From Capitulum mitella (Eukaryota; Arthropoda; Thecostraca; Pollicipedomorpha; Pollicipedidae): 64,000 nt of DNA. The notes under the pieces are model-generated. The model was not told where the DNA came from. It worked only from the letters and a program-made list of their open reading frames with translations, and searched no databases. The stretch lies in assembly GCA_030062745.1 (NCBI GenBank), contig CP099848.1, positions 16,541,081 to 16,605,080 of the forward strand, written 5' to 3'. Positions 4,808 to 46,900 of this stretch are shown here, in pieces. The position numbers and the translations under genes are program-made. How positions within the stretch are numbered: the stretch's first letter is position 1; each line of letters opens with the position of its first letter.

Positions 4808-4940
4808 CACACGTCCGACAGTTCCGGCCCGGAGCCTACGCCGCTCCGCCCTACGTGCCTGAGTGCGCCCCTGCCTGGCCGGCCGGCCGGCAGGCGCTGC
4901 ACCCGACACAAACGCCAGTCACGGTGCACACGGCACAGAG

Positions 4941-4952
4941 TGCGCACGGCCC
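4941..4952 (+). promoter_or_regulatory. Metal response element, full consensus
   Basis: TGCGCACGGCCC matches the MTF-1 consensus TGCRCNCGGCCC at all 12 positions. A near match, TGCACACGGCAC, lies 16 bp upstream at 4925-4936, and a 7-bp core match, TGCGCCC, at 4864-4870. The sites fall 100-190 bp before the start codon of a zinc transporter, where MTF-1 control would make sense. GC-rich sequence raises the chance rate of core matches but less so of the 12/12 match. Confidence 0.45.
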
Positions 4953-5051
4953 CGGCGGCCGTCCATCAGCAGAGCCCGGCGCGGTCGGCCGACACGCGGC
5001 GCGCCACCCGACGAGCCGGACACCAGCGCCTCCGGCCGGTGCGGCGTCGCC

Positions 5052-6077
5052 ATGAGCGTGGCAGGCGCCAAGCTCGGTGGCTTCGCGCTGCTGCTGCTGA
5101 CCTCGCTGGCGCTGGGCCTGCTGCCGTTCAAGCTGACTCCGCTGCTGCGCCGGCACGCCGACACGCAGCGCGGCCGCGTGGCGCTGGCGCTCTCCTGCCT
5201 GCAGTGCTTCGGCGGCGGCATCCTGCTGGCCACCGTGTTCGCGCACATGCTGCCCGAGATCCGCGAGGGCCTGGCGGCGGCGGCCGGGCCAGGCGTCACC
5301 TTCCCGCTGGCCGAGGTGCTCCTCTGCGCCGGCATGTTCGGCATCTACCTGGTGGAGGAGCTAGGCATGCTGTGCGCGCGCAGCCGGCCGTCGGCTGCCG
5401 GCGACACGACGCCTATGCTGGGCAAGCCGGCGCCGGCTGAGGCCGAGAACGGCGTGCCGCCGGCGCCGGCCCGGCCCAGCTACGGCGCCACGGCCGAGGG
5501 CGGCGGCCACGGGCACGCACACTTGGCGCCGCCGGCCACACTCGGCGCCTTCCGCGTGCTGATCGTGGCCGCCGCGCTGTCTGTGCACTCGGTGTTCGAG
5601 GGCATGGCCATCGGCCTGGAGAGCACGGAGACGAGCGCCTGGCTGCTGACCGCCGCCATCGCCACGCACAAGTCGGTGATCGCCTTCTGCCTGGGCGAGC
5701 AGCTGGCCGCCTCCACGCAGCCGCTGCGCACGGCGCTGGCCACGCTGGCCCTGTTCGTGGCCGCCTCGCCTGCCGGCATCCTGATCGGCATGCTGGTCTC
5801 CTCGGCCGGCGGCGACCTGGCCTCACAGGCGCTCATGACGGACGTGCTGCAGGCGCTGGCCGCCGGTACCATCCTCTACGTCGTGCTCTTCGAGATCATC
5901 GGCGGCGAGCGCGCCAAGCCGGGCAGCGGGCTGGCCAAGCTGGCCGCCATCCTGGTCGGCTTCGGCTTCATGCTGCTGGTGACGAACGTGATCCACGAAC
6001 CGGAGCCGGCCAGCGGCAAGGCGGCCGGCTTGACCGACGGGCTGAGTCCGGCGCCGGCCAACGTGAGCGACGGGTGA
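5052..6077 (+). CDS. ZIP-family zinc transporter (SLC39A1/2/3-like), single exon
   Basis: Predicted 341-residue ZIP importer that moves Zn2+ (and perhaps other divalent ions) into the cytosol, usually at the plasma membrane. Eight hydrophobic segments are visible at about residues 8-26, 43-65, 85-107, 164-189, 197-218, 227-250, 259-283 and 294-314. The ZIP subfamily II signature HSVFEGMAIGLE (179-190) lies in segment 4, with the partner HKS (206-208) in segment 5. The loop between segments 3 and 4 carries a His cluster, HGHAH (153-157), typical of metal-binding ZIP loops. The ATG at 5052 is chosen for its good context (GTCGCCATGA), its match to the paralogue's start, and the absence of any upstream in-frame ATG. 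There is no intron. The paralogue at 20776-21937 is nearly identical from segment 4 to segment 5. Which of SLC39A1, A2 or A3 is closest cannot be decided by eye. Confidence 0.93.
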   Translation: MSVAGAKLGGFALLLLTSLALGLLPFKLTPLLRRHADTQRGRVALALSCLQCFGGGILLATVFAHMLPEIREGLAAAAGPGVTFPLAEVLLCAGMFGIYLVEELGMLCARSRPSAAGDTTPMLGKPAPAEAENGVPPAPARPSYGATAEGGGHGHAHLAPPATLGAFRVLIVAAALSVHSVFEGMAIGLESTETSAWLLTAAIATHKSVIAFCLGEQLAASTQPLRTALATLALFVAASPAGILIGMLVSSAGGDLASQALMTDVLQALAAGTILYVVLFEIIGGERAKPGSGLAKLAAILVGFGFMLLVTNVIHEPEPASGKAAGLTDGLSPAPANVSDG

Positions 6078-6436: not shown

Positions 6437-7971
6437 TTAACCCGCGCACGACCGTCGGTCGGTTTCGAACATGCGAGACTAGGGGGGGGGGGCATTTGGC
6501 CGCCCCCCTCTAACTCACGAACGGTTGGTTGCACGATGAAAAATAAGCACACCGTTGGAAGGCTTGTGACGAGTACTACAGACGAGTACTTGTAGACGAG
6601 TAGAGCTCGAAACTGGTCTCATTTTTAGTTTTAAATAATATGTAAACAACTTACGCCCTATGTGTTTTCTCATAGCCGACTGCATGAGACCGAGAAATGA
6701 CCTGGATCTCAAGGGCTGTGACTAATAACGCATAGGTAAAGGCACTAGCGCACAAGTAAATGTCCGCGGATGCCGATACACGTCTAATTTCACAGATTTG
6801 TTCAATATATACGCCGAAACGCCGAGTAAAGAACACGGCAATTCTGGCGCCGGCTGTAGGCGTGCGCCGCTGCCGTATGCAGTAACAAATTGACGGGAAC
6901 TAACTTTAGCGTTCCTTTATTTTCGCGAAAAAAGACGATCTATGTAAATTTTATTGATCTTAGCGATTCTTGTGTTGGTTTCTCATGCTTAAATTTTGGA
7001 AAAAATGATTAGTTACCAATCTACACAACTGGCGGAGCTATATTCGCGAGAGCCTGTTTATTTCCAAAATATGCTATTTTTCAAACTTTTTGAGGTTCCT
7101 GGTATTACTTCCGTCTGTGCAAGCTAGTTCTGCCATTTTCTACCCATTCTGAGTAATTCATCGCCGATTTTGACGGTGGTACATTTTGGCTCACTACAGT
7201 TATCCGTGACCTGACCTCAGGTCAATGGCTGGAAGTCATTGATAAGCGATTCTTGTGTTGGTTTCTCATGCTTAAATTTTGGAAAAATTGATTAGTTACC
7301 AATCTACACAACTGGCGGAGCTATATTCGCGAGAGCCTGTTTATTTCCAAAATATGCTATTTTTCAAACTTTTTGAGGTTCCTGGTATTACTTCCGTCTG
7401 TGCAAGCTAGTTCTGCCATTTTCTACCCATTCTGAGTAATTCATCGCCGATTTTGACGGTGGTACATTTTGGCTCACTACAGTTATCCGTGACCTGACCT
7501 CAGGTCAATGGCTGGAAGTCATTGATACTTTGCGCAATGATGGTAACTAGATGTCTGCTTCACTCCACACTAAAAATGTTATGAAATATTCCGTCAATTT
7601 CCGAAAAAACGACGACATGTCCTAAAAATGGTCTTGACCGTAGGTCAATGACCCGGAAAATTCCGAAAAATCTGAGATGCCAGATTTGTTGCATCTATCA
7701 CGATCACTAATCCCTCACAGTATCATTGAGATATCTTGTTTTCCGAAAAAGTTACAGGGCGCTAAACTTTTAACCACATAGGTCTGTTTGACCTGACCTA
7801 GGTCAGGCACCTGACCTGACCTGAGGTCAAAATTTTGACACAGATGTAAAAATGATGAAGCAAAAGGTACGCAGAGTTTCGTGACTCTGTGTTTGTTCGT
7901 TCTCTCGCAAACCCAGAAAAACCTCAGGGGGGGGGCAGTCAACTGCTGCCCCCCTGTCGGGGACGGGTTAA
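6437..7971 (+). mobile_element. TTAA-flanked element, family 1, copy 1
   Basis: Bounded by TTAA at 6437-6440 and 7968-7971, starting TTAACCCGCG and ending GGGACGGGTTAA. TTAA sites with CCC...GGG termini are the piggyBac pattern. Each end has a subterminal GC hairpin (about 6482-6512 and 7927-7957). No transposase frame, so non-autonomous. It is longer than its three relatives (1535 versus about 1220 bp) because of a 283-bp internal tandem duplication. Everted AGGTCA pairs occur at 7212-7224, 7495-7507, 7794-7805 and 7817-7829. Confidence 0.85.
6962..7527. repeat. 283-bp near-perfect tandem duplication
   Basis: Unit 1 is 6962-7244 and unit 2 is 7245-7527. By eye they differ at a single base, in the A-run after TTTTGG. 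The other three family copies carry one unit each, so the duplication is specific to this copy and recent, or an assembly duplication. Confidence 0.9.
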
Positions 7972-9400: not shown

Positions 9401-9960
9401 GCTGCGCTCACAAACGGTCATCTCCGCGAAACCGAGTCGTGGTTCCGTCAGCCACAAGACGGCCGCGCCTGACACCACAAGTGGTGCACCCCCAGTCGTC
9501 AGAGGAACAAAAACCGCAGCACACGCTGACACGACTACACCCTGTTCCTACATCCGACCACCGGAAGACGGAGAAAATAACGCCGAAGGAGTGTTTCAAC
9601 AGCGGAGCACGCTCCACGCTGGGAGCGGAGCACGTCCTACAGGTCCAGCGACTGCCGTCTGTGCGTCATAACGCGCCGAATCAACTGCCTCGGCGACGGC
9701 TGCTGCGGTACAGCCGGCGCCCGGCACCCGAAAACGCACTGCTGCGTGTCTGCGTGACGCAGCTGCGCTCTCGCACACACACGCGCTGCGTCCCTGCCGC
9801 TCGCGCCGGTCCACCCGCAGCGGCCGCACGTCGGCCAAGACAGGCAGACCTCGGAGAGGGACCGGCAGTGGGGGGCCGAGCCGGACACCGCGGACCGACC
9901 CCGCCGCCGGCTGCCGCTCGCCACACGTGAGCTCACCACACGTGTGACGTCACACATCAC
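9400..9960. promoter_or_regulatory. CpG-rich island with E-box/CRE cluster
   Basis: GC- and CpG-dense block open in several frames on both strands (for example 9376-9930 +), which reflects composition, not a recognised protein. Its right edge has ACACGTGT (9938-9945) overlapping a perfect CRE, TGACGTCA (9945-9952). This resembles a CpG-island promoter. No transcript it would serve could be identified. Confidence 0.3.
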
Positions 9961-11642: not shown

Positions 11643-11792
11643 CTGCGGATCATACGCCCAGCGATGCGCCTCCGGCGTCTGCACCTTGCAGGCGAGCATG
11701 GGCGCGTAGCTGGCCTCCTCTGCCGTGCCCGCCGACACGGCGGCGCACAGATCTTCCCGACGCACCTCCTGACGCCGGCTGTACGTAATGTA
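11643..11792 (-). CDS. GalNAc-transferase exon h (lectin beta repeat)
   Basis: Fifty codons in phase 0, between a TTTCAG acceptor and a CAG/GTAGGT donor. It begins YITYSRRQEVRRED, matching the start of the second ricin-type (beta) repeat of GT27 lectin domains, and ends near HRWAYDPQ where the family has QxW. The usual Cys-Leu-Asp of the beta repeat reads CAA here, so the sugar-contacting Asp is missing. The beta site is probably not a functional GalNAc pocket. A further exon with the gamma repeat and stop codon is expected below 11642 but was not found. Confidence 0.85.
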
Positions 11793-12199: not shown

Positions 12200-12439
12200 C
12201 TGTCCTGAGACGGGCGGCTCTGTGCACGTGTTGAGGCCCAGGTACACGTCCGGCTGGATGACCAGCGTGTCGAGACAGAGGTCGGGCCGGCCGCGCGAGC
12301 GCAGCTGGCCGCTGGCCGTGACGTCCTCGTCCAGGCGAAGCTTGTTCGGGTAGACTGTGTCCAGGTACCAGCGGAACGGCCGACAGCCGAGCCGCCGCCG
12401 CAGCTCGCGGCGGGCCGACACGTCACCGGCCGGCGGCAG
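12200..12439 (-). CDS. GalNAc-transferase exon g (end of catalytic domain, lectin alpha repeat)
   Basis: Eighty codons, phase 0, acceptor GCCGCAG and donor CAG/GTGCGC. It reads [17 protein letters not shown], then [13 protein letters not shown], the conserved linker region joining the GT27 catalytic domain to the lectin domain (family pattern C-K-x-F-x-W-Y-L-x-x-V-Y-P). The alpha repeat follows with an intact CLDTL and a later paired Cys (NTC). The acceptor junction is present in three tandem copies 62 bp apart; only this proximal one keeps the frame after exon f. Confidence 0.92.
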
Positions 12440-12600
12440 CTGCGGCACAGGCCGGAACAGATCAGCAAAGGTCAGCACAGGCCGGCACCGGCCGGCGGCA
12501 GCTGCAGCGCAGGCCGGAACAGATCAGCAAAGGTCAGCACAGGCCGGCACCGGCCGGCGGCAGCTGCGGCACAGGTCAGCATAAGCCGGCATGGGCCAGC
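12427..12600. repeat. 62-bp tandem repeat spanning the exon g acceptor
   Basis: The junction GGCGGCAG/CTGC with its flank recurs with boundaries at 12439/12440, 12501/12502 and 12563/12564. Units 1 and 2 are almost identical. Unit 3 decays into shorter GGTCAGCACAG-like repeats up to about 12645. The first unit includes the first bases of the coding exon, so the array grew out of the splice junction. Confidence 0.88.
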
Positions 12601-12645
12601 ATAAGTCAACACACATCAGCACAGGTCAGCACAGTGCAACGTACT

Positions 12646-13046
12646 GAACGGCACGGATTAGCACAAAGGTGGCACGGGGTATCACTGGATGGCACAGGAT
12701 GAAATGCAGATCTATACAGGTCAACAAAGCATGCTGCAAGCCCACTCAAAGCATAAGTCACAGCGATGAATGACGTAGGTCGGCAAAGGACGGCAGACGG
12801 TCTTGGCAGACAACTGTGCAGGAGTTAAAAACGTCACAACAGGCTCGTGCAGCAACCTAAGTTAGAACACATTGTTCAACACATGGGGTTTGACTCCAAC
12901 ACGAAAGACAACATGAAAACCATATGTGCTAAAATGACAAGGCAAAAAATGCAGTTTTACTGCACTATTTCTCTGCACCAACAACACACTCCGCGGTTAA
13001 AACAGACAGGTTAAGACAGTGCACGTCCAGTGCTGGCGGTACTCAC
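12646..13046 (-). other. Rest of the intron between exons f and g
   Basis: No gene or recognisable element. The donor at its upstream end is GAG/GTGAGT. Confidence 0.6.
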
Positions 13047-13232
13047 CTCGGTGTGGCGATAGTGGAGGTAAAAGTACCGGCTGTACTCGTCCATCCAGAC
13101 GGCAGCGATTCGCGCCATGTTGGCCGCCAACGGGTTCTTGCTCCAAGGGAACGAGTACGGGTGGAAGTCGCGGAAGATGTGGCCCACCCGCGAACAGGGC
13201 AGCGTCTCGACCACACCGCCGCACTGCCAGGT
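13047..13232 (-). CDS. GalNAc-transferase exon f (catalytic domain, third metal ligand)
   Basis: Sixty-two codons, phase 0, acceptor TTTCGCAG and donor GAG/GTGAGT. It opens [20 protein letters not shown], the strongly conserved GT27 block that holds the His completing the Mn2+ site (VGH). It continues through [18 protein letters not shown], matching the family's R-x-A-x-V-W-M-D-E-Y. The first bases of the exon, with the acceptor, are repeated twice more in the intron with a period of about 43 bp. Confidence 0.95.
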
Positions 13233-13325
13233 CTGCGAAACACAGGCGGTAAAACACACACTGCCGGACCGCCAGACACACGAAGCACATGCAGTCAACA
13301 CACCGCCGCACCGCCAGATCTGCTA
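13215..13325. repeat. About 43-bp tandem repeat (x3) spanning the exon f acceptor
   Basis: The exon start CTGGCAGTGCGGCGGTGT (minus) recurs as CTGGCGGTCCGGCAGTGT and CTGGCGGTGCGGCGGTGT, with unit ends at 13230, 13275 and 13317. The most distal unit also keeps a CAG acceptor (GCAG/ATCTGG, boundary 13319/13320). Confidence 0.8.
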
Positions 13326-13800
13326 ACGACAGGCGGTAAACACACTGTCGTGATGCATGATCTGCGGACCATACGCAGTTAAAACCTAGCAAAACTTCGG
13401 GCACAGTTACACTGATTTGGTCCAAACAACACCGAACTTTATGCCTATTCCATACACGATAAGAACAAAACGGCATATCGCCTGTTTTTAACACCGAACA
13501 AGTGCAGCATGATACTATCCCCAGTTCATTTCATTTAAGGAACAGTTTGCGCATTTCAATACATGCATTTCCACACTTTCTGAACGACTCAAAAATGGAA
13601 AATGGAGCAGAATACAGGAGGTTTACACCATTTTGAGTAGTCTCATTCATACCCAATGTTCCACCTGGGCCGCCTTTTTATAAGGGGCTTGGTTGGTCTA
13701 AAAATGTCACTGATAATTGTTTAATAATAATTTAATAAATGTTTTCAGTCCTAACTTTTCCCAGAAAAATATGTCTAGGGTTTAAAGAGAACGCAGTGCA
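13326..13800. other. Intronic sequence upstream of exon f, nothing recognised
   Basis: AT-leaning intron sequence between the exon f repeat and the TTAA element. Confidence 0.4.
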
Positions 13801-15028: not shown

Positions 15029-17240
15029 AAACTTCACTTTATAATCACCCGCCGACGTGACCAAGTAATGGCTTACGAGGGCCAATGCGCGCAAGCTTTT
15101 GTTTGGCCAGCGTCAGTTGGTGGCGGCACACAACATCTGCAAATAGAACATGACCGAATAGGACACAAGGAAAATGGTGGGAAACCCGTTAAAACTTCTG
15201 CGTCTAGGTTTGGGCCACAAATGCCTTACACATTAGCTTCAAGGCTATAGTGCCAAGGACACGGGTCAACAAGCAAATCCTGCATACGGGGCTTATCGCA
15301 TCCGTCGTGTTTGCCTTCACATGAGGTATTTTTGCGTTCCCAGTTAGGAAAAGTGCCGCTTCATTGCGCGGCAGATTACACAATATCATGGGCCGCATGA
15401 AACAGGTATCCGATACTACATGTACCTACCATCTATGAAAATGCTCTAAACGTATCTGATTGCAAGAGAATCACGGCCGCCTTTTTTCTACAAAGCATAC
15501 TACAGGTACACTACTCCGCTACAAGATGACGCCTTCCATAAGTACATTACCTAGACGCTAGATGGCAGTGTGCAGCTACGGTATTTATTCTTTACGAAAA
15601 TTGCTCCTTAATGACACAAACCCATCACAGCGTCTTATGTGCCGTTGTTAAAATAATGGCTGCAAAGTATAAAAACTGAAATTAGCGGATTCCTTTTACT
15701 TCTTGGATAAATCGGCATGCACAGACCTAATCAAAACACAAAACTGCACACTACGACATACGCATTTTGTGACATGGCCTTTCAAAGTGACTAAAGCACC
15801 ATCATCTAGTAGAGGTTAAGTTTAACCTTCGACAGGGCGATGACGACAAGAGGTGAACATGATCACATGATTAACCTCACGGAACATTTGTAAGATTCTC
15901 GAATGTTTCCTACATCTGAGCCCCTAGATGATCCATACAATACATAACTTTCAGCCAACATGGAAAATAAGTCATCGTCCTACACCACTACCTAAAATAC
16001 CAAGTACCAAAACCGACACAGCCAACCAACGTTAGACACAAACGCATGGACCTTGACCAGAACACTTACTCTGACAGGAATAACTCCGCAATTTCACAGC
16101 AATGCATGATAAAAACTTCCACCAAACCCTGAACCACGCAAGACAGTCACGTCGAGAGGTTGTTCAAAATCCGATGGTAACAGCGGCATGGTCAACAAGG
16201 GGCCATAGCCCAAGCTGCCGCTTTGGTCAACAAGGGGCCATAGCCCAAGCTGCCCCTTTTCCTACAAAATTTTGCATACCTCCATTCGGGAGATTTCCGT
16301 GTAAGACAAGATACACTGCTTGCATTTATACTTGATCTTCGGTTAGCATTCCTCAATCACTCTGAGGGCCCCTAACCGCTATGATAAGCCTGGCTGGCGC
16401 CTGGTGAGACCGCGAGCAACAGAGAGATCTGTTGTTAACGCGCTACGTCACCAATTGTCAATCTGTTGTCATCTGTTGTAGAGAAAACATGCCTGTGCTC
16501 TGGGCCGTAGACAGCCGTTAACCGGGCATGTTTCACCCCTACTGAATGCCAGACATCAGCGACTATTATCCAGTTGTTCTCGTTGCCTAATTTCCACAGC
16601 AAGCTAAAGAACTGTCTTCCACACGATCAGGCACCTGTTGCATCTAGGCCGGGTTTTCGTGAACATGTCTGGTTTGTGTAAAAAAATATTGCCGATTTCA
16701 GCATCCATCTTTCTGAAACGCGTGCATAAACCTCATAAAATGTTGTTAATTAAAAACGCTAGGTTATGAAGCCATTCTCCGATATGATGCAAAACGGGAC
16801 ATCGCAGGTCAGTGAACGAAAGCGTGTACTGGTCTGCGCCAAGTCGTGATGCCACACAACGGTTGAAAATGGGACATGAATGAATACAAACAGGGGAAGA
16901 TAGGGTTGGAAGAAATGAAAAAAAAACAATAAGGATAGGGAAACTGAAAAAGGACACACGGGAAAAAAACCCAGGGAGACATTCTCGAACCTCTTAGTTT
17001 CGCAGATTACGTTTTTTCGTAGTCTTTTTTTCCGTAGTTACGTAGACGGCCGACGCCTATCATGCATTGCCTTGTAAGATTGCAGGCCACAACTTGGTGT
17101 CTGGGTTCAAACCACGCATGAAGGTGGACTGTTCCCTTTGATACCTCCTCTTGCTTGCTGCAACGAAGCCTGCATAAACCTGCGCAGAGAGTCAAATCCC
17201 CTCCAACGGTTCTCATGGGACAGCCTGCCGCTCAGCTCAC
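15029..17240. other. Intron between exons e and f, no gene; one 35-bp duplication
   Basis: A 35-bp unit starting GGTCAACAAGGGGCCATAGC occurs twice in tandem at about 16190-16259. Otherwise no gene, RNA or element was recognised. Confidence 0.5.
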
Positions 17241-17358
17241 CCTGAAGGACAGCTCCAGGTTCTCGCCGCCGTAGACGTCCATGCCCGTGTCGTAGCCGCC
17301 CAGGTGCCAGAAGTACTCCCGGTTCATGGCGTACAGGCCGCCCGACATCACAGGAGAT
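17241..17358 (-). CDS. GalNAc-transferase exon e (GGEN block)
   Basis: 118-bp exon, acceptor TTACACAG and donor AGG/GTGAGC. Its first base completes an Arg codon from exon d. It encodes [16 protein letters not shown] and then a block ending [11 protein letters not shown]. This is the acceptor-side GT27 segment; most members read W-G-G-E-N, and Tyr replaces the Trp here, as in some subgroups. Phase enters at 2 and leaves at 0, consistent with both neighbours. Confidence 0.95.
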
Positions 17359-20775: not shown

Positions 20776-21937
20776 TTACGACATCGCCAGCCGATCGTTA
20801 GTGCGGCCGCGCCGGTCCCGGTATCGCCCCAATCTTCGTACGACGGCCGCAATGCCCGAGCACGCAAGCCCCGGCGCATCGACCGCCGCCACGAAACCCG
20901 TCAACCCCCCACCGGTGGGCTCGGCCGCGGCCACCGGCACCGGCGCCGGCGCCGGCTCCGGCTCCGGCTCCTGCACGATGCACGTGACCAGCAGCATGAA
21001 GCCGAAGCCGACCAGGATGGCGGCCAGCTTGGCCAGCCCGCTGCCCGGCTTGGCGCGCTCGCCGCCGATGATCTCGAAGCAGACGACGTAGAGGATGGTA
21101 CCGGCGGCCAGCGCCTGCAACACGGCGGCCAGCATAGCATGGCCCCCGCCGCCGCCGGCCGTCAGCAGCGCGCCCATCAGCAGGCCCAGCGGCGAGGCCA
21201 GCACGAACAGGGCCAGCGTGGCCAGCGCGCGCCGCGTGCTCGCCACCGAGGTGGCCAGCTGCTCGCCCAGACAGAAGGCGATCACCGACTTGTGCGTGGC
21301 GATGGCGGCGGTCAGCAGCCAGGCGCTCGCCTCCGTGTTCTCCAGGCCGATGGCCATGCCCTCGAACACCGAGTGCACAGACAGCGCGGCGGCCACGATC
21401 AGCACGCGGAAGGCGCCGAGAGTGGGCGGCTCGGCCAGGTCCGGCGGCTGCCCGCGCTCGCCGCGGCGGGCGCCCGGCACGGCGCCGTACTCCGGCTCCT
21501 CGCCGTCCTCCTCCCGGCCGAGCAGGGCGCTGCCCTGACGGGCGTCGTACAGCACGCGCTCGTCGTGGCCCGGCTCGGCCAACGGGCCGTAATCGGAAGG
21601 CGGCGGCCGGCGGCTCGCGCACAGCACGCCCACCTCCTCCAGCAGGTAGACAGCGAACAGACCGCAACAGAGCAGCACCTCTGGTAGCGGAAAGTCCGAC
21701 TTGCCCAGCGCCTTTTGCACCTTCTCGCGCACCTCGGGCAGCATGTGCGCGAACACCGGTGGCCAGCAGAACGCCGCCGCCGAGACACTGCAGGCAGGAC
21801 AGCGCCAGGGCGGCGCGATCCTTGTGCGTCGAGCGCCGCTTCAGGCAGGCGGCCAGCCTGAACGGCAGCAGGCCCATCAGCAGCGAGGTGATCAGCAGCA
21901 CCAGGAAGCCGCCCACCTGGGCCGAGAGCAGGCTCAT
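20776..21937 (-). CDS. ZIP-family zinc transporter paralogue, nested in an intron; one-base frameshift
   Basis: Paralogue of the ZIP gene at 5052. The start ATG (21935-21937) has an ideal context (GCCGCCATGA), and the stop is TAA at 20776-20778. The length is 3n+1: an extra G at 21756-21757, inside a conserved segment 2 block (LLAT then FAHMLPE), splits it into two frames. Allowing for that base, the protein is about 386 residues with eight hydrophobic segments, HSVFEGMAIGLE in segment 4 and HKSVIAFCLGEQL in segment 5. The loop between segments 3 and 4 lacks the His cluster of its paralogue and is acidic instead (GREEDGEEPEY). The tail is Pro/Ala/Glu-rich. It is single-exon and on the same strand as the host GalNAc-transferase gene. 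The frameshift could be an assembly error, a polymorphism or early decay; the rest of the frame is intact. Confidence 0.9.
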
Positions 21938-24488: not shown

Positions 24489-24689
24489 CTGACTGGCGCC
24501 GCCTGGCTGGCCGGCTTCCGGCCATCGGCGTCGCCGGCTGCGATCCACTCGAAGTGTCCGGACCAGGCGAACCCGCCGGCCACTCGCTCCGCTCGCTGGT
24601 AGGCCAGGTCCGAGTCGCGGATGTTGTCGATGGCCGGGCAGACCAGAACGCGCGGCTCCTCCTTAATGCGCTGCAGCAGCGGCTCAGCC
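24489..24689 (-). CDS. GalNAc-transferase exon d (catalytic domain)
   Basis: 201-bp exon, acceptor GCCGTCAG and donor CAG/GTTGGT. It reads W(A)EPLLQRIKEEPRVLVCP, AIDNI, then GGFAWSGHFEW, the GT27 segment after the metal-binding motif. The phase enters at 2 and leaves at 2, fitting both neighbours. The acceptor follows a run of 16 C (minus), an unusually uniform polypyrimidine tract. The WAEPxLQRIKE/DNI wording resembles the human GALNT8/9/17/18 subgroup, but other exons do not settle the subgroup. Confidence 0.93.
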
Positions 24690-24934: not shown

Positions 24935-25110
24935 CACAGCTCGCACGGCTCCACGTGAGAGTCTAGGAAGATGAGCACCTCGCCGGTGGCGCGGCTGGCG
25001 CCCCAGTGGCGGCCCTTGATCAGACCATGCCGCTCCGGCAGCCGCAGCAGGCGCACCTTGTCCGGCAGCCGGGCGGCCAGGTAAGCGCTCCAGCTGGGCA
25101 CCCAGCTCAT
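24935..25110 (-). CDS. GalNAc-transferase exon c (DxH motif) with one-base frameshift
   Basis: Acceptor CCAG/ATGAG and donor TG/GTGAGT. The exon gives DELGAQLER, then in the +1 frame [17 protein letters not shown], and [22 protein letters not shown] is the DxH metal-binding motif. An extra A:T at 25083-25084 separates the two frames. With it removed the exon is 175 bp and all junction phases agree from the first to the last recognised exon. No alternative acceptor with the correct phase was found nearby. The cause may be a sequencing indel, a polymorphism or a disabling mutation. Confidence 0.9.
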
Positions 25111-25632: not shown

Positions 25633-25664
25633 CACCTTTGGTGTTTCCGGCCTCACCTTTGGTG
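25633..25664 (-). repeat. 21-bp duplication of the exon b donor
   Basis: CACCTTTGGTG (plus) occurs at 25633-25643 and 25654-25664, so the donor ACCAAAG/GTG is present twice, 21 bp apart. Use of the second would add seven in-frame codons (GEAGNTK). Confidence 0.8.
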
Positions 25665-25823
25665 CTGGCGTCGTCCACCAGCAGGATCTCGTGCAGCAGG
25701 CGGGCCGGCGTGCGCGCCAGCACCGAGTGCACGGTGCGCAGCAGCGCCGACCACACCTCGTTGTGGAAGTTGATGATCACGCTGGCGTTGGGTAGCTGGG
25801 CGTCGTACCGCAGCTCTCGGCAC
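25657..25823 (-). CDS. GalNAc-transferase exon b (catalytic core, LVDDAS)
   Basis: 167-bp exon, acceptor GCGGCAG and donor AAAG/GTGAGG. It reads [35 protein letters not shown], then [10 protein letters not shown]. This is the nucleotide-sugar-binding start of the GT-A fold in family GT27 (polypeptide N-acetylgalactosaminyltransferase, the first step of mucin-type O-glycosylation in the Golgi). The first base completes a Thr codon from exon a, giving the familiar LPDVRP...CR junction. Confidence 0.95.
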
Positions 25824-26540
25824 CTGCCGCCATGGCGACCGACCGGGTCAGCGGACACTGGATGCGTGATAAAACGGATTTCAAATCAATACACTCTAAG
25901 ACGCACCCAATGACAATACCATATAGAAAGTGTCAATTCATTTATTAGGACATTCCGAGATGAGGCATCCCTCGGGGAGAGTAAAAGGCTATTTCACAAG
26001 CAATGGGAGGTGGAACTCCAGATATCACGCCTATAATCAGCGTAACCAGAACAAGGCCTTCGCCTTGGCACTACAGAATTACGAACAACGATGCAGTAGA
26101 TCAAACACGTGTACAAGCCAGCCATCAAAATAATTCATAACCACAATGTTACGCTGCTAGGTACGAGCTGACGTGCGGCATTTCAGACAACAGACACATG
26201 CCGCCCCGTGATGACTGTACTCGAGGTGGATCACAGGACCCAGAGTAGGTCACAGCAAGCCCACGCGGGTCACAGCAGACTGCACTGGGACGCTGCTGGT
26301 TCAGGCTGCACTGGGACGGATACGCTCCGTCCGCACAGGCGTTCACCAGCTCACTGTGCATTGGAAACACCGGTTCAGCCTGCACCGGCTTCGCTGTTCC
26401 TTTATGCCCCAGCACACTGGCCCAGTATACATCATACACGGCAGGAGCGGCTGAGCCCGGCCTGCTGACGAAGGCGCGCACCGCAGTCGAATGGCAGACT
26501 ACACATTCGCAAGGAGGATTCGACATTCCTACTGCAAACT
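25824..26540. other. Intron between exons a and b (part), no gene recognised
   Basis: Unremarkable sequence leading into the 20-bp repeat array. A loose CTGGGACGC/CACTGGGACGG direct repeat is seen near 26283-26320. Confidence 0.4.
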
Positions 26541-26544
26541 ATAG

Positions 26545-27080
26545 TCCCGTTTGGTGAACTACACACTCGTATGGTCAGCTACAACCCATAGGGTGGTTCA
26601 GATACTCGCGCGGCGGACTAAGTCGCTGGGCGGTGGAGCAGTCATTCGTATGGCAGACTACACGGTTTCATGATGAACTGGTCACTTACGTGGATGACAG
26701 ACAATTGCGCAGGGAAACAGAAACTCACGTGGTCGATTGGACGCTCATATCAGAGATTGGACAGACAAGGTGGTGGGCTGAACACTCAGATGGTGGGCCC
26801 GGCACGTCGCGAGCCGGACATACACGTGGCGGACTAGACAGAAACGTGGGGGAAAAGACGCTCACATGGCACGCTAAACACTCAATTGACGGGCACGGCA
26901 CTCGCAGCTGATCAGACACTCACGTACCGGGCCGAGCACTCCGGTGGCGGGTTGGGCACTCACGTGGAGGACTAGAAACTCACGTAGGGGGCCGGACGCT
27001 CACGTGGCAAGCTAGACACTCATGTGGCGGGCCGGACACTCGCGTGGCAGATCGGGCACTCACGTGGCGGGCCGGACGTC
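26545..27080. repeat. 20-bp minisatellite made of copies of the exon a 5' splice site
   Basis: Unit on plus: CACTCACGTGGCGGGCCGGA. On the transcribed strand this is the exon end CCGGCCCGCCAC followed by the donor GTGAGTG. Units are regular and well matched from about 26900 to 27080 and increasingly diverged towards 26545, about 25 units in all. The exon boundary itself (27064/27063) is the edge unit. Several units keep GTGAGT or GTGAG. Confidence 0.9.
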
Positions 27081-27347
27081 GGGCAGCCGGCGCACGTACG
27101 GCACCTTGTCGCTGGCCACCACGTTGAAGCCATGCTGCCGGTGGAGGAGTTCGGCGCGGTGCTGCTCGGCGGCCGACAGCGCCACCGGCTGGCCGCCATC
27201 GCCGGCCGACGGCTCGATCAACGCCAGCTGAGGGAACTCAGCGTCCGCCGCCGGCCGCCGCGCCAGCAGCAGGGCCGCGACGGCCGCCGCCGCCGCCGCC
27301 GCCAGCAGAGCCGGCCTGCCGCCAGCCGCCCGCCACTGGCCGACTCC
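27064..27347 (-). CDS. GalNAc-transferase exon a (signal anchor and stem)
   Basis: First recognised exon of a polypeptide N-acetylgalactosaminyltransferase, a Golgi type II membrane enzyme that transfers GalNAc from UDP-GalNAc to Ser/Thr. Acceptor CTGACAG at 27348-27354 and donor GCCAC/GTGAGT. It encodes an Ala/Leu-rich hydrophobic stretch (RPALL, seven Ala, then VAALLL; about exon residues 11-29) that serves as signal anchor. A short stem follows, then HRQHGFNVVASDKVPYVRRL and PDVRPA, the entry to the catalytic domain. No in-frame ATG lies in this exon and a TGA lies just before it, so the start codon must be on an upstream exon that was not identified. The order of exons a-h is 27347 down to 11643. 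Confidence 0.9.
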
Positions 27348-27600
27348 CTGTCAGCGACGGCGTACGCTGGAGGGTCGGCGGCAGCTCGCAATACTGCCGT
27401 GCCGGACACGGCTGGGACGGGAGTCAAGACATGGCGGTGCGCGTCTGGTGCTCTACGCATCGGATCTACGTGGGGGCGGCAAAATACAAGCAATATGTCA
27501 GCAGCGAAAACACAAGGAAAATACCTTTAACAGAAACTACAACATCGGACATCGCACACTGTATCGGCAGATGTTCTGACATTTTGTTTAATCAATGGTA
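27348..27600. other. Upstream of exon a, nothing recognised
   Basis: Normal CpG density up to the abrupt CpG-poor block. No start-codon exon was found here. Confidence 0.4.
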
Positions 27601-30120
27601 AGCCCCTGCATAAGTGTGCTTAGTATGCCCACTCACCTAAAAAATGTGAAGCAAAATGAGCAGTTTACAAGCAGCATTTCTAACCAACCACATTCAGTTT
27701 TTACATGTTGCTGTTGTTTACCAAGCAGCAGCACTTGAAAACATGGGAATCTTACTTTTAAGCCTTGCACCATGTCTTGGCTTTCCTGCCATGTCTTCTG
27801 CAGACAATTCCACAGTCGAAGTCCTGTTGATGAAAATGACAATGAAGCTCATTCAAAAGACAAAAAAGGGCTTAGCAAGTGGCCCTGGCACCAGTGCAAG
27901 GGCTGCGAGGGGAGGTTCGTGAGACAGGCAGAACTGAACCAGAAGGCCCTCTCTGCTAAATAACTGCATATACCAGTGTGGGTGGGTGGAGGAGCTACAA
28001 AGACTGGATGGCTGGTTAATAACTGGGGCTTAGGGATGCAACTTCTGTGATACAGTGCCCACACAACAAAGAGTAGACCGTTTTTTTTTTATTTTAGCTC
28101 ACACAAGAGAGTAAGCCGATCTCCTGAACAAAACTTTCAGTGTGCAGGTTTTGTTTTCTGCAGCTATACCCTCTCAAAGCACAGGTCTGAGAGGAAGCAA
28201 TGAGGGTGAAGTTGGAGAGGTTACATTTATAGGAGTCCCCAGACCCAGACAGCTTTCAAAGCAGGAATTTAAATGAACTGGCACTGGACCTAAGCAGTTA
28301 ACTTGCCACTGTCCTTTAAAGTTGCCTGAGCACAGGACCCTGACTGCAAACTGGTGAGAATCGAATGTAGTTTGCTTCTTCAGGAATGGGCACAGAGCAA
28401 ACCCAGGCAAACAATGACCTGTTCATCTGACATCAATCAGCTGCAAGAGCCTCCAGTCATTCACTGAGAAACTCCAGTGTCCCACCTCTTCAAGAATGAG
28501 ATACTCTCTGACACAAAGCTTGCATTTTAGGCAGTCCTGTGCTACCCAAATTCTCCAGTGTCATCCAAATGTCATAAAGTGGCATGGTTGCCAGATGAGG
28601 AAATCAAGACACACAGCCTTTTCAGTAGCTGGCTGGAAAAACACAGCTCATAATGCAAATCAGCATGCACATCATGATATACCAGAACATTACCATAATT
28701 CAGCAAATGCCCGTGGATGACCATGACTAGGATATCCCTTAGGGCACCACATATTGGGATCTTTCTGGTCCTGTCAAACCTTCCTATCTTCAACCTGCTG
28801 CATTAGACCACTTACAGCAATATTACATCTGGCATCATATTATATATTTGTTTTTTTGCACTGAAATTATAGGTTCTGGTGCAAGTCATGCTATGAACAT
28901 GCAATGATAAGCACTTTTTCATGAAACATAAACTTCATATATGTTCATATGACAAGTTTACCAGGCATTACCATGACATGAAAAGAAATGTAACAGTACC
29001 TGTAACACAGGAAGGCTTCCATATGGAATGCTGGGAAAAATAGACAAAAACAACATGGATGGCAATGAATCCCACTACCCTATAAAAAAGAGACTGGTGC
29101 TGTCACTGGCATTAATGTCTAGACTCTGGACTAATTTTGTGCCTAAAACTAGAATTATGAACTGGAATGATGAATACAACATGCTGTTTTTATGAATATA
29201 TTGTTTAACTATGCCCATCTGATGGAACAAATTCAAGTCTAGGCTTTCTGGTGAATGGCATAACTGATGGCTAAGCCACTGATGCACTTTATTGGGTATC
29301 TTGTAAGGTAGGGCAAATTCAAGAAGGTACAGTTCAAAGACTTAGGGACAGGCCATGCAGGCTAGATGTAAAACCAGGCAAGGATTTTTCATGCCATATG
29401 AAACAATTACTCGTATCAATCCCACCCTCTGCCTCCAAACCACCTTAGTTTCTGAGTAAATTGTCTGCTGGTTGGAAGAACTGTATTTCCATCTTGCTTT
29501 TTGAACATTATTTACATTATACCTTTTAACCAAGCATTGCATATTACATCTTACAAACATTCCATTGCTATCTCCATATAATGCATACAACAAAAATGGG
29601 CACTGAATCTAGTAAAAGTGTAGTACCTTTCAGGACTGCATTCAATAACATTCACATTATCACCACAATTTCTCAAATGTGTGACAAATCCGCACATTGT
29701 TGAAAGATCATCATGAGAATGAAACAAATGGCCCATAAATGGAATGGTGAAAGCCATTTCACCTGGTTGAATCCAAAAACAATAAACCCCACTTCTGTGG
29801 CATTTCATGACAAAAAATAATGAATTTTGTTCCCTCGTAATACATTTTAATAAACAATGCATTGCAAAAACTGTAAAAATGTTTTCATGAATACAGGAGA
29901 AAGCATCATCAATTTCACACAGGCCACTCATGCTTATTTATGCCTGAATTTTATAACATCACAACCATGAATATGACTGAAATGTCTTGTCCTGAGGATG
30001 ATGATGCCTACATAAATTTCATGTTACTTTAGGATGATGGGTGCCGAGGAAACAGATTTCCTGCAAAATGCAGGCTGTATTATATAAACAAGCACAGGCA
30101 AATAGGACAGAAAAATCTGC
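27600..30120. other. CpG-depleted block of foreign-looking composition
   Basis: About 11 CpG in 2.5 kb by eye, against very dense CpG immediately to the left (27060-27480). TG and CA are frequent, so methylation-driven CpG loss is likely. Two possible minus-strand donors occur (TTTAG/GTGAGT at 27637/27636 and AAA/GTAAGA near 27790), but no exon could be assigned. Possible sources: an old methylated transposon, part of a methylated gene body, a horizontally acquired segment or a chimeric assembly join. Confidence 0.7.
29551..29931 (-). CDS. Unassigned 126-codon Cys/His-rich open frame
   Basis: ATG-started frame in the CpG-poor block, with many Cys, His and Phe residues (for example FSCIHENIFTVFAMHCLLKC and MGHLFHSHDDLSTMCGFVTH). 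The residue mix is protein-like and not explained by repetition, but I cannot name a family. It could be a piece of a transposon-encoded protein. A second minus frame at 29342-29593 overlaps its end. Confidence 0.25.
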   Translation of the reverse strand: MSGLCEIDDAFSCIHENIFTVFAMHCLLKCITREQNSLFFVMKCHRSGVYCFWIQPGEMAFTIPFMGHLFHSHDDLSTMCGFVTHLRNCGDNVNVIECSPERYYTFTRFSAHFCCMHYMEIAMECL

Positions 30121-31807: not shown

Positions 31808-33310
31808 CAGGGGCGTAGCCAGGATTCCGCCAAGGGGAGCCAAAGCGGATCAAGGGGGCCCTCGTAACCAATGGGGGCCCTCGCCAAGGGTGGATCCAGC
31901 ATTTCGCCAAGGCTGCGGCGGGAGGGGGAGGGATGGAGGCGAATGGTCGGTGCAGGGCCCCATTTTTGCCCTTCAGATGTGAAAAATGATGTATTATGCT
32001 TTTTACCATATAAAATAACCAAAAAAATCAAACGCGTGACCTCATTTGAGAAAATTCGGCGATTTGTTCCAGAACAAAGCGGCCAAAATATGACAAAAAC
32101 GGCGCGATTTTAGACGGTTTTGTCCCCCCATTTGAAATGTCCTGTCTGTATCTGGTCCAGGGGTCCGTCTGTCTCCTCCCCCCCCATTCTGTAGCTTCTG
32201 GGGATTTTTTTGTCAGCTTAGTTTAAGTTCCCTCTTGCAGTTACAAGGACACTTTTGGTGGTCTCGGGCCGCCTGTCGTGCCAGGACCCTCTAGTGGTCT
32301 CAGGTTCCTTTTAAAGTTTCACGTGTCCCGCGGGACGTCTCAGGCGCTCCTTTGGCAGTTTCAGGAGCACATCGGACAGTCTCAGGGACCCATCTGGCAG
32401 TTTCAGGGACGATTAAGCCATTTCGGGTTCCCTCCTGTTGTCCCTGGGACGTTTTTGCCTTCTAAGAAGCCCCTGAGGCACTGAAAAAACTCACTCTATA
32501 AGTCTCTCTTTGCCGTCATAGTGGCGCCTTTGGCAATCCTCCAGGTCCCATGGCCGTTTCAGGAGTAGTCTGGACGTCTCAAGGTCCAGTAGTTTTAGGG
32601 GCCACTCTAGTCTTCTCAGAGGACCCTATTGCTAGAGACTTCTAGTTAGCAGTCCCAAATGTGCCTCTCTAGAGGTCTCAGTGGACCCCCTGTGGTCCTG
32701 GATACCCCTCTTATAGTCTCTGGGAAAATTTTGGCTATCTCAGGGACCCTCTGGCAGTTACAAGAGACCATTTGGCAATTTATGGGCCTCTGTGTAGTGT
32801 CATAGGCCCTCTGAATGTCTCTGGTGGTCCCCATGGCTGTATCAAGGGTTCTTACTCTGTTACATGAGGTATATCTGGCAGTCTTTTAGCGCCCCTCTAG
32901 TTGTAACAAGTGGCTTTTGTTGGCGCTTCAGGGGCCTCTCTGGCAGTCTCAGGGGGACCTTGCCCGTGCCAGGAGCCCGCTTATTATACTCGGGGACCCT
33001 CTGGCCGTTCAGTGCCTCATAATACCCAAATATCGTCTCAGAGGCCTTTTATCGTCTTTGCCTCGCAGGGGCCCTGCGACCTTTTTAGCGGTCCCAGGGG
33101 TCATCTGCGGTGCACGGGCCCATCTTGTCGTCTCAAAAACCACCTGACATTTCCGGGGGGCCCTGACGGCATCAAGAGCCCCTCAAGGTTTCAAAAAGAC
33201 CAGTGTAGCCCATTTGTGGCTCCTCTCGAGATTGAGGTCACCGACGAATCGCCGTTCAGGGGGCCAGTCTGGCTGGCCAGGTTCTCCTTATGCCGAAAGG
33301 GACCCCGCTG
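31808..33310 (-). mobile_element. Long hAT-ended repeat element, copy B (inverted relative to copy A)
   Basis: Starts CAGGGGCGTAGCCAGGATT at 31808, followed by sequence colinear with the reverse complement of about 1030-2782: AT-rich subterminal part, then the degenerate GGCAGTTTCAGGGACC-type array. Homology ends near 33310. The preceding 8 bases (CGTACTTT) were not found again at the far end, so this copy is probably truncated. The frame at 32910-33311 (+) is homologous to that at 983-1276 (-) only because the DNA is. Confidence 0.75.
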
Positions 33311-44859: not shown

Positions 44860-46900
44860 CGAAATTTCTGGGGGGGGGGGCAAAAACATAGACTGACGGC
44901 TGGGGGGCGACCGCACCTCCTGTCCCTCTCCCTTTCCAGCCATCGCTGTCCGGAATAGAAAATTTTTGCCGCTGATGAACATTTCTTTCTTGTCCGCGTA
45001 CCTACCGAATGATTTTCTGTGAAAAGGCTAACATCATTCGTAAATATACTGCTCAAAAACGGGCCCTGAGATGAGCCCTGAAACCCATCCATGCTGTTAG
45101 ACAACTTTCCCGAGGTGTGCTTCCTTCCCGAAAAATCAGTGACGCTGACACTCGGGGTGTGACCGCGGAGGTGCCAGAAAACCAAGAAGCATCAGCGTCA
45201 TAATGAGCCAGTTTCAGAAGTAGCTTTGCGTGACTGATAACATCGAAGCATTTGCTGAGGTACAAGATGTACAGCAGAGAAATTTTGCCACCGCCAGTGG
45301 CTAGTGAGATGCGATGAGCGACCGAAATGAGTGCTGTTTCAGTAGAGTGGACAGGCCGAAAAACACGTTCGGGGCTTGAGGAAAAGGTAGTTCACCGATG
45401 TATCTCTCCATACGGTTGAATTTGGACTACTTTCTCGACAATTTAGACGAAAGCTGGTATAACTGATGTCGACCCGAAAGGAGATGAGTCAAACAAAAGG
45501 ACAGACTGGAGAATGGGGTTGGCGATAGAATGTTTCCAGACATCGGGAAACTCAATAAAAGTCAAAAATGAACTAATGATATGGGGAATGCTGCCGCTGA
45601 TTTCATTAAATGAGGCCTTGAAAGTACCAATGCCATGTCCGTCATGCCCTGCAGACGAACTCCGCATGCCAAAAATCACCTTGCGTAGCTGGTCGCAGGA
45701 GACAGGTGACACGGTGAAGGCACTAGTTCTCTCTCGTGGGCAGCGGCATGGCAGTCCAGGGCAATTTAGGACGGCGACGTCGGAGGCCACCGCCGGGCCA
45801 ATTCCGACGAAATAGCTGTTTAGCGTATCCACGGAAGTACCTGGAACAATGCGCGTACCGCATTTTTTGCTGTCGATCACTGTTTGAACAGAGCATCAAA
45901 CAGAGCCAGGCTCGGATAGTTTCCGGCCAATGTCAGTTAAAGCATCGCGGCAAATAACGGTACAGACATACTTGTTTAAATCTTTATGAAGGGTGGAACC
46001 GTAGCCATGGGTGCGAAGGACCTCTCGGCCCCAATCCATCAGGGACAGGGCTTGTTAGGAGTTTGGTGGTGAGGTTGAGTTGCGGATTTTCTTGGAGATG
46101 AGGGGAACACACTGATCGAGCGCTGGAAAGAAGATAGAAAGGAAGGCAGACTCTGTCTGTAACAGATGTCGACGAAGATACACCGGAAGAGTCAACATAG
46201 CGGAGACCACGGTGAAAGAGGGTAGAATCAATACTATACACAGGGAACTGAAAAACGCACGTTGGCGTGTCGCGAGGTCGAGACACGGCAATGTTAAAAC
46301 GAATGAAGCTGTGAGGACTGAAATCGCAGTTCAAAGTACTACGGATAAAAACAGAGGAGTAACCTCCACTCAGTACCGCATCGAGTAGTGAGCCGCTGGT
46401 AAAAGTAGTGTCCTTGACATGTTGAGAAAGATTAAAGTGCGAGGCAAACTCAACAAATTTAGCAGAAGAAAGTGAATCTTTCGGAAGGTTACAATTAAAG
46501 TCACCGAAAAGAAAAACAGATGGGCCAGGGTGGCAAAGAAGTACCGATTCTACCTGGCTCTCCAGCAGGTCGAATTCTGCCTCAAGGACAGAGACAGAAC
46601 GACGAGGGGGCCGGTACACTGCCGCTAACACTATTCGTCTCTTGTCCATGTTCCGTGTACAGACTCCACAGAGTCTCTATACCAGCGTCGTCTTGAGATT
46701 CCGTTTGCAACTTGACAGGTGTGAAAATGGAGGGGGCTACAGTCAGCACTGCCACGCCCCCGAAACCACTGCTGTCCAGCATGTCTGCCCGATGCCAGCG
46801 ATATCCGAGCATCACCAGCAGACGGTCGGGGGTGACGGGCTTCAGCCATGTCTCCCACAGCACCACCATACAGGGCCTCGTTTAACATGCTAACTGGAAG
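44860..46900 (-). pseudogene. LINE retrotransposon, endonuclease and N-terminal reverse transcriptase (CR1/Jockey-like)
   Basis: Reading on -: an apurinic-endonuclease start (VVLWETWLKPV, GFGGVAVLTV), a frame change, then VLAAVYRPPRRS and FLFGDFNCNL, both endonuclease hallmarks. Reverse-transcriptase pieces follow: FRPVHSTETALIS, LYLSKCFDVISHAKLLLKLA and QGPFLSSIFTNDVSLF. Many stops and frameshifts make it a dead copy, 5'-truncated before the first endonuclease motif. The Asp-Asp box is missing and the later part lies at 41590-42010. Confidence 0.85.

Follow-up and report, generated by a model that had tools for sequence, protein, structure and literature searches.

Does an exon that is followed by many copies of its own 5' splice site make use of them, or does the intron merely carry them? 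The question arises in the window analysed here, a stretch of 64,000 nucleotides from Capitulum mitella (contig CP099848.1), where the initial annotation had described a minisatellite, built from the end of a GalNAc-transferase exon and its donor, as a run of decoy donors.

The host gene lies on the minus strand and is a GALNT-type polypeptide GalNAc-transferase with introns. Using a query joined by hand from open reading frames of the window, we found with phmmer that GALNT1 (8v9q, 1e-87) and GALNT10 (2d7i, 6e-87) matched among solved structures, and tblastn with segments of these two proteins located exons E1 to E7. The similarity runs across the exons of the catalytic domain and places the gene in the GALNT/pgant family. 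We took the splice sites from homology and phase, which gave the following features (a slash marks a splice site; E2 to E7 rest on tblastn, splice sites and frame).

27064-27350, minus strand: exon E1, open from 27350, with a tblastn match and a frame that runs on into E2
27058-27063, minus strand: true 5' splice site of E1, CAC/GTGAGT, by homology and phase, U1 pairing -5.3 kcal/mol
27060-27062, minus strand: in-frame TGA that is read when the E1 donor is skipped (ACG TGA), from the open reading frame
25657-25823, minus strand: exon E2
24935-25110, minus strand: exon E3, with a frame break against its homologues near its start
24489-24689, minus strand: exon E4
17241-17358, minus strand: exon E5
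13047-13232, minus strand: exon E6
12200-12439, minus strand: exon E7
11643-11792, minus strand: probable exon E8, from splice-site motifs and an open frame only, with no homology match

Either an error in sequencing or damage to this copy of the gene would account for the frame break in E3. Members of the GALNT/pgant family carry a C-terminal lectin domain. Here E7 aligned to GALNT1 in tblastn across a 14-residue stretch, E7 and E8 had no match in Pfam at 0.01, and the last exon of the transferase was not found in the window. A 15-bp repeat, GCTCACCACACGTGA, lies on the plus strand at 9916-9944, where that exon would be expected. The E5-E6 intron contains a 35-bp unit in two copies that are 97% alike (16189-16259).

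The window also holds two frames of the ZIP family of zinc transporters, at 4863-6077 (plus strand) and 20776-21840 (minus strand), which matched the Pfam Zip profile at 3e-48 over positions 2-322 and at 1.8e-38 over positions 53-322 of 323, respectively. The latter is nested in the E4-E5 intron, in the same orientation as the transferase, and inspection by eye suggests that its beginning carries on in a different frame. Elsewhere, 6962-7527 holds a 283-bp segment duplicated in tandem at 99% matches, an event that appears recent. The stretches 32241-33240 and 201-2360 show periodicity at lags such as 21, 22, 41 and 42 and have long reading frames that look alike; they are possibly copies of one dispersed repeat. 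A frame at 45984-46676 (minus strand) matched an endonuclease-reverse transcriptase at 3.3e-4, under the curated cut-off, and is probably a decayed retrotransposon.

Exon E1 ends at 27064, where homology and phase place AC/GTGAGTG with its GT at 27063-27062. The match of GALNT10 and GALNT1 segments to E1 in tblastn covers 27203-27072. When E1 is joined to E2 in frame, the resulting peptide matches LPDVR..C of GALNT1 and LPDIR..C of GALNT10, and the boundary at 27064 is supported by this comparison of sequences. This donor is the weakest of the eight that we examined, with a predicted U1 pairing of -5.3 kcal/mol compared with -6.8 to -11.3 kcal/mol for the others, as scored by a simple duplex energy against the U1 5' end, which falls short of a full splice-site model.

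From this junction the repeat extends into the E1-E2 intron.

27055-27074, minus strand: junction unit, 11 exon bases and 9 intron bases, matching the consensus at 19/20
26483-27054, minus strand: array of about 29 decayed 20-bp units in the E1-E2 intron, from Tandem Repeats Finder (TRF), autocorrelation and alignment

TRF reported a period of 20 with 8.1 copies at 26915-27077 (67% matches, score 137), and its plus-strand consensus, GACACTCACGTGGCGGGCCG, is a rotation of the minus-strand unit CGGCCCGCCACGTGAGTGTC. This unit consists of the 11 terminal bases of E1 and 9 bases of the intron, and the junction unit differs from the array consensus CGGCCCGCCACGTGAGTGTC at a single position. The description of the unit as the last 12 or so exon bases plus the GTGAGTG donor was thus right in its composition, and its exon share is 11 bases (27064-27074), or 14 if a shared GTC is counted. 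The predicted 20-bp periodicity was borne out both by TRF and by autocorrelation at lag 20, which was 0.67 in 26915-27077, 0.46 in 26545-26914 and 0.40 in 26400-26544; none of 500 dinucleotide shuffles matched any of these values. In 26200-26400 the signal was marginal (0.34, p 0.008), and two control stretches gave 0.25 (27500-27870, p 0.68) and 0.29 (25900-26200, p 0.16). By formal analysis, therefore, this is a minisatellite with a 20-bp unit arranged head to tail.

The extent of the array depends on the measure. Wraparound local alignment traced the unit to 26563, and 26545-26914 alone matched the consensus with a score of 76, compared with a maximum of 17 in 100 shuffles. In 26400-26544 the match (score 11) did not exceed the shuffle maximum (13 in 100 shuffles), and only the periodicity is visible there, to about 26400. 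A forced alignment laid out about 29 units (numbered 1-29) beyond the junction unit (unit 0), to about 26483; five poor rows beyond unit 29 were excluded from later counts. Of the copy number first proposed, about 25, the array itself is real, and the count becomes about 29 by forced alignment or 8.1 by TRF. On the exon side, gapped local alignment ran to 27124. Without gaps the three upstream exon blocks match the unit at 8, 5 and 8 of 20 positions, and for this reason they were not counted as units. The sequence ACGTGAGT occurs five times in the window, always on the minus strand, at the junction and in four array units, and the consensus with up to three mismatches is found at four places in the window, all within the array, junction included. 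We also considered a 40-bp higher-order repeat, as lags 40 and 60 (0.715 and 0.699) are slightly above lag 20 (0.671) near the exon. This was dropped, with unit-by-unit identity at 0.62-0.69 for separations of 1 to 6 (units 0-10) and no clear pair order.

The farther a copy lies from the exon, the less it resembles the junction. Along units 1-29 the identity to the junction unit falls (rho -0.77; 0 of 5,000 permutations as low), and its mean is 0.79 in units 0-9, the junction itself included, 0.64 in units 10-19 and 0.49 in units 20-29. The differences are mostly transitions (154 transitions to 58 transversions). CpG usually decays to CA, TG or TA, and in many copies the CpGs at columns 0-1 and 10-11 of the unit have become one of these; the tally covers these two of the unit's three CpGs (the other sits at columns 5-6). 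In the 30 rows, junction included, columns 0-1 are CG in 7, TA in 10, CA in 5 and TG in 4. Because CG is now TA, CA or TG in 19/30 of these rows, the exon is favoured as the source of the repeat. This direction of decay and the exon part of the unit, which encodes the conserved R of LPDVR, favour the proposal that the array was seeded at the junction.

The consensus of units 20-29, TAGTCCACCATACGAGTGTC, departs from the junction at 8/20 columns, indicating that the distal units share changes. They have probably multiplied among themselves, and, as judged from these common changes, the growth of the array would not be simply a repeated copying of the junction. The donor GT is not preferentially kept: across 29 units with gaps omitted, its columns are preserved in 30/55 cells compared with 217/313 in 11 comparison columns (p 0.04), a lower retention that is partly a CpG effect, with one GT column sitting in a CpG. 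The rest of the donor, GAGT, is kept in 89/114 cells (78%, compared with 69% elsewhere; p 0.09), which is only perhaps a weak hint of constraint. A structured-RNA reading was ruled out, as every one of 100 shuffles folded more stably than the array (z +2.58). In addition, no known RNA family was found at gathering thresholds, and no tRNA or tmRNA was found.

The decoys were then scored in the same way as the true donor. GT is retained in 9/29 units past the junction and missing from 20/29, and in units 1 and 2, the nearest to E1, it is replaced by GC and AT. The sites at or below -4.5 kcal/mol in the array number seven in register and one out of register.

26860-27003, minus strand: proximal in-register decoys with GT kept, at or below -4.5 kcal/mol by U1 duplex, first GT bases at 27003, 26983, 26963, 26923 and 26865
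26927, minus strand: out-of-register decoy, at or below -4.5 kcal/mol by U1 duplex
26684-26728, minus strand: distal decoys CAC/GTGAGT (26728) and CAC/GTAAGT (26689), by alignment and U1 duplex

Units 4, 5, 7 and 17 pair with U1 at -5.3 kcal/mol, equal to the true donor, and unit 19, which lies 374 nt away, at -5.2 kcal/mol. The idea that the decoys weaken with distance from the exon therefore holds for their similarity to the junction, which falls as described, and fails for their strength, as the two nearest lack GT and several farther ones match the true site. We also rejected the view that the decoy field is exceptionally dense. The count of eight donor-like sites within 663 bp at the -4.5 kcal/mol threshold is reached in 104 of 633 overlapping blocks of the same strand; with the threshold at -5.2 kcal/mol, 179 of 633 have as many sites as the array. 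Finally, whichever decoy is used, the exon would read through ACG TGA and meet a stop at 27062-27060, even where the extension is an in-frame multiple of 20. Because this TGA lies in frame at the exon boundary, the frame of the decoy is irrelevant to the outcome. An exon extension that depends on frame is thereby ruled out, and the expectation of extensions by multiples of about 20 nt, mostly out of frame, gives way to truncation at once from every decoy.

The donor of E1 is not the only junction of this gene that is covered by an array. Three of the 15 junctions examined have a spanning array, at the E1 donor, the E6 acceptor and the E7 acceptor, and 12 have none.

13212-13345, minus strand: second junction array, 42-bp unit in 3.1 copies by TRF, covering the E6 acceptor and 21 exon bases
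12424-12760, minus strand: third junction array, 62-bp unit in 2.5 copies by TRF (12424-12575), plus a 10-bp period

At E6, the acceptor copy at 13319 keeps its CAG, and its use would add 29 codons in frame. The 62-bp unit at E7 contains the acceptor and the first 16 exon bases, with a lag-62 identity of 0.96 in 12424-12575; use of either of its two acceptor copies (12501 and 12563) would lead to a stop after LPPAGAGLC. The 10-bp period stands at 0.56 in 12424-12575, 0.67 in 12576-12640 and 0.59 in 12576-12700, and it fades upstream, beyond the 62-bp copies, to 0.41 in 12640-12760, 0.33 in 12700-12850 and 0.24 in 12800-12950. The 30-mers at the exon edges agree with this picture, with a 25/30 match at +87 for E6 and a 28/30 match at +62 for E7. 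In self-similarity to their surroundings, the edges at the E1 donor, E6 acceptor and E7 acceptor rank among the 2.7%, 1.5% and 1.1% of window positions that score highest, respectively, whereas for each of the other 12 edges at least 18% of window positions are equally similar to their own surroundings. Three of the 20 TRF arrays in the window cover a splice junction (p 0.005 by random placement in the whole window), as do three of the seven within the gene span (p 0.020), in a test that was designed after the arrays had been seen and that concerns a single gene.

We think it probable that a duplication spanning the E1 junction grew into the intron and now decays neutrally, with no selected function that we could detect. 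A stretch across the donor, with 11-14 exon and 9 intron bases, would have undergone tandem duplication, with replication slippage or unequal exchange as the probable mechanism, and the spliceosome would have stayed with the copy attached to the exon. The spare copies would then count as intron and be free to multiply; growth towards the exon would break the protein, so that the intron would be the only direction open to the array. Distant copies would be older, or past exchange with the junction end, and would lose their CpGs and change chiefly through transitions. A likely side effect is low-level mis-splicing to those few decoys that survive, each of which would truncate the protein at once. 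The same relation of array to junction at the E6 and E7 acceptors lends support to such neutral growth, as do the periodicity and identity gradient, the excess of transitions, the poor retention of GT and the low stability of the RNA. Against it stand the changes shared by the distal units, the slightly better keeping of GAGT and the 12 edges that have no array.

If the decoys had a function, they might draw U1 away from a weak true donor and, by steering a share of transcripts into unproductive splicing with immediate stops, tune transferase levels. The energies suit this view: none of the other seven donors examined is as weak as the true one, which four decoys match and a fifth approaches to within 0.1 kcal/mol. 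So do the immediate stop given by every decoy and the slightly better keeping of GAGT. The loss of GT from both nearest decoys and from 20/29 units speaks against it, together with the poorer keeping of the GT columns, partly a CpG effect though this is, and the equal density of donor-like sites in 104/633 blocks. The pattern of kept bases gives no clear support to unproductive splicing, which is possible, if unlikely. The order of events could also be reversed, with a minisatellite beside the exon from the beginning and one of its units taken over as exon end and donor. The last codons of E1 (PAT) are absent from GALNT1 and GALNT10, and the distal units have a consensus of their own, both of which fit an array that came first. 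Such an origin is nevertheless quite improbable, as the unit holds the conserved R of LPDVR (and the V, through the shared GTC) as well as a canonical donor, CpG decay runs outward from the junction, and near matches to the consensus in the window all belong to this array.

Two further readings have still less in their favour. As DNA, the array might serve as an intronic enhancer with CACGTG motifs, which we take to be E-boxes, spaced 20 bp apart; the unit does contain CACGTG, and 5 of the 27 copies in the window fall within 26545-27080, although the motif arises automatically from the CAC/GTG junction and those five are all that are left. We regard this as very improbable. An assembly or sequencing artefact is the least credible of the four: the E3 frame break and the apparent shift of frame, by eye, in one of the two ZIP frames point to possible small errors, but an artefact should have left near-identical copies, and the observed copies descend in order from 0.79 to 0.49 in mean identity to the junction unit.

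Neutral growth of a junction-spanning duplication thus remains our preferred account of the E1 array. A broader proposal, which we offer tentatively and hold to be rather doubtful, is that introns here gain length at their ends as their own splice junctions, both donors and acceptors, are duplicated over and over; splicing would stay with the copy next to the exon, and the shed copies would form an ordered, fading record of past junctions. Clear fading with distance from the exon is seen in two of the three arrays (E1 donor and E7 acceptor). Three junction-spanning arrays in one gene, at a donor and two acceptors, suggest that junctions can seed arrays and lengthen introns. Ordered decay might permit relative dating of the copies, and the gene would lend itself naturally to asking how the spliceosome picks one site from several equal neighbours. 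Among the literature matches listed, whose coverage leaves out most subscription journals, we found no case of arrays at several junctions of one gene.

The closest known case, as likened by description, is the minisatellite of human IFI6 (6-16, G1P3), whose better-preserved unit measures about 12 bp and is found where exon 2 ends. As in an array of the IFI6 type, the repeat here touches the exon end, and the junction unit (27055-27074) holds the donor GTGAGTGCC and 11 exon bases; donors are preserved through the IFI6 array, whereas GT survives in 9/29 units here. The IFI6 repeat has been described as having multiple splice donor sites (Turri, Cuin and Porter 1995, NAR 23:1854, as cited in PMC4526556, PMC3618361 and PMC2572611), and according to PMC4526556 two downstream repeat units act as donor sites and give rise to three mRNA species. 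In both cases units of a tandem repeat contain splice donors, which in C. mitella are potential ones. The C. mitella array differs in that every decoy is predicted to give an immediate stop and that 20/29 units are without GT. In human segmentally duplicated genes, variable internal tandem repeats at exon-intron boundaries change splicing, with units that average 30 bp in 4 copies and 160 bp in total (PMC2812944). These are likewise minisatellites at exon-intron boundaries, and they form novel introns or stay in the exons of young paralogues, whereas our array lies inside a pre-existing intron. Tandem duplication has also been described as a route to new introns in the potato RdRp case (PMC4974935); 24-bp AGGT segments, repeated in two genes of fission yeast, are cited there as well. 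The potato case shares with ours the gain of extra splice sites from tandemly duplicated DNA at an exon edge; in potato a new intron was made, whereas here the copies lengthen an existing intron from its edge.
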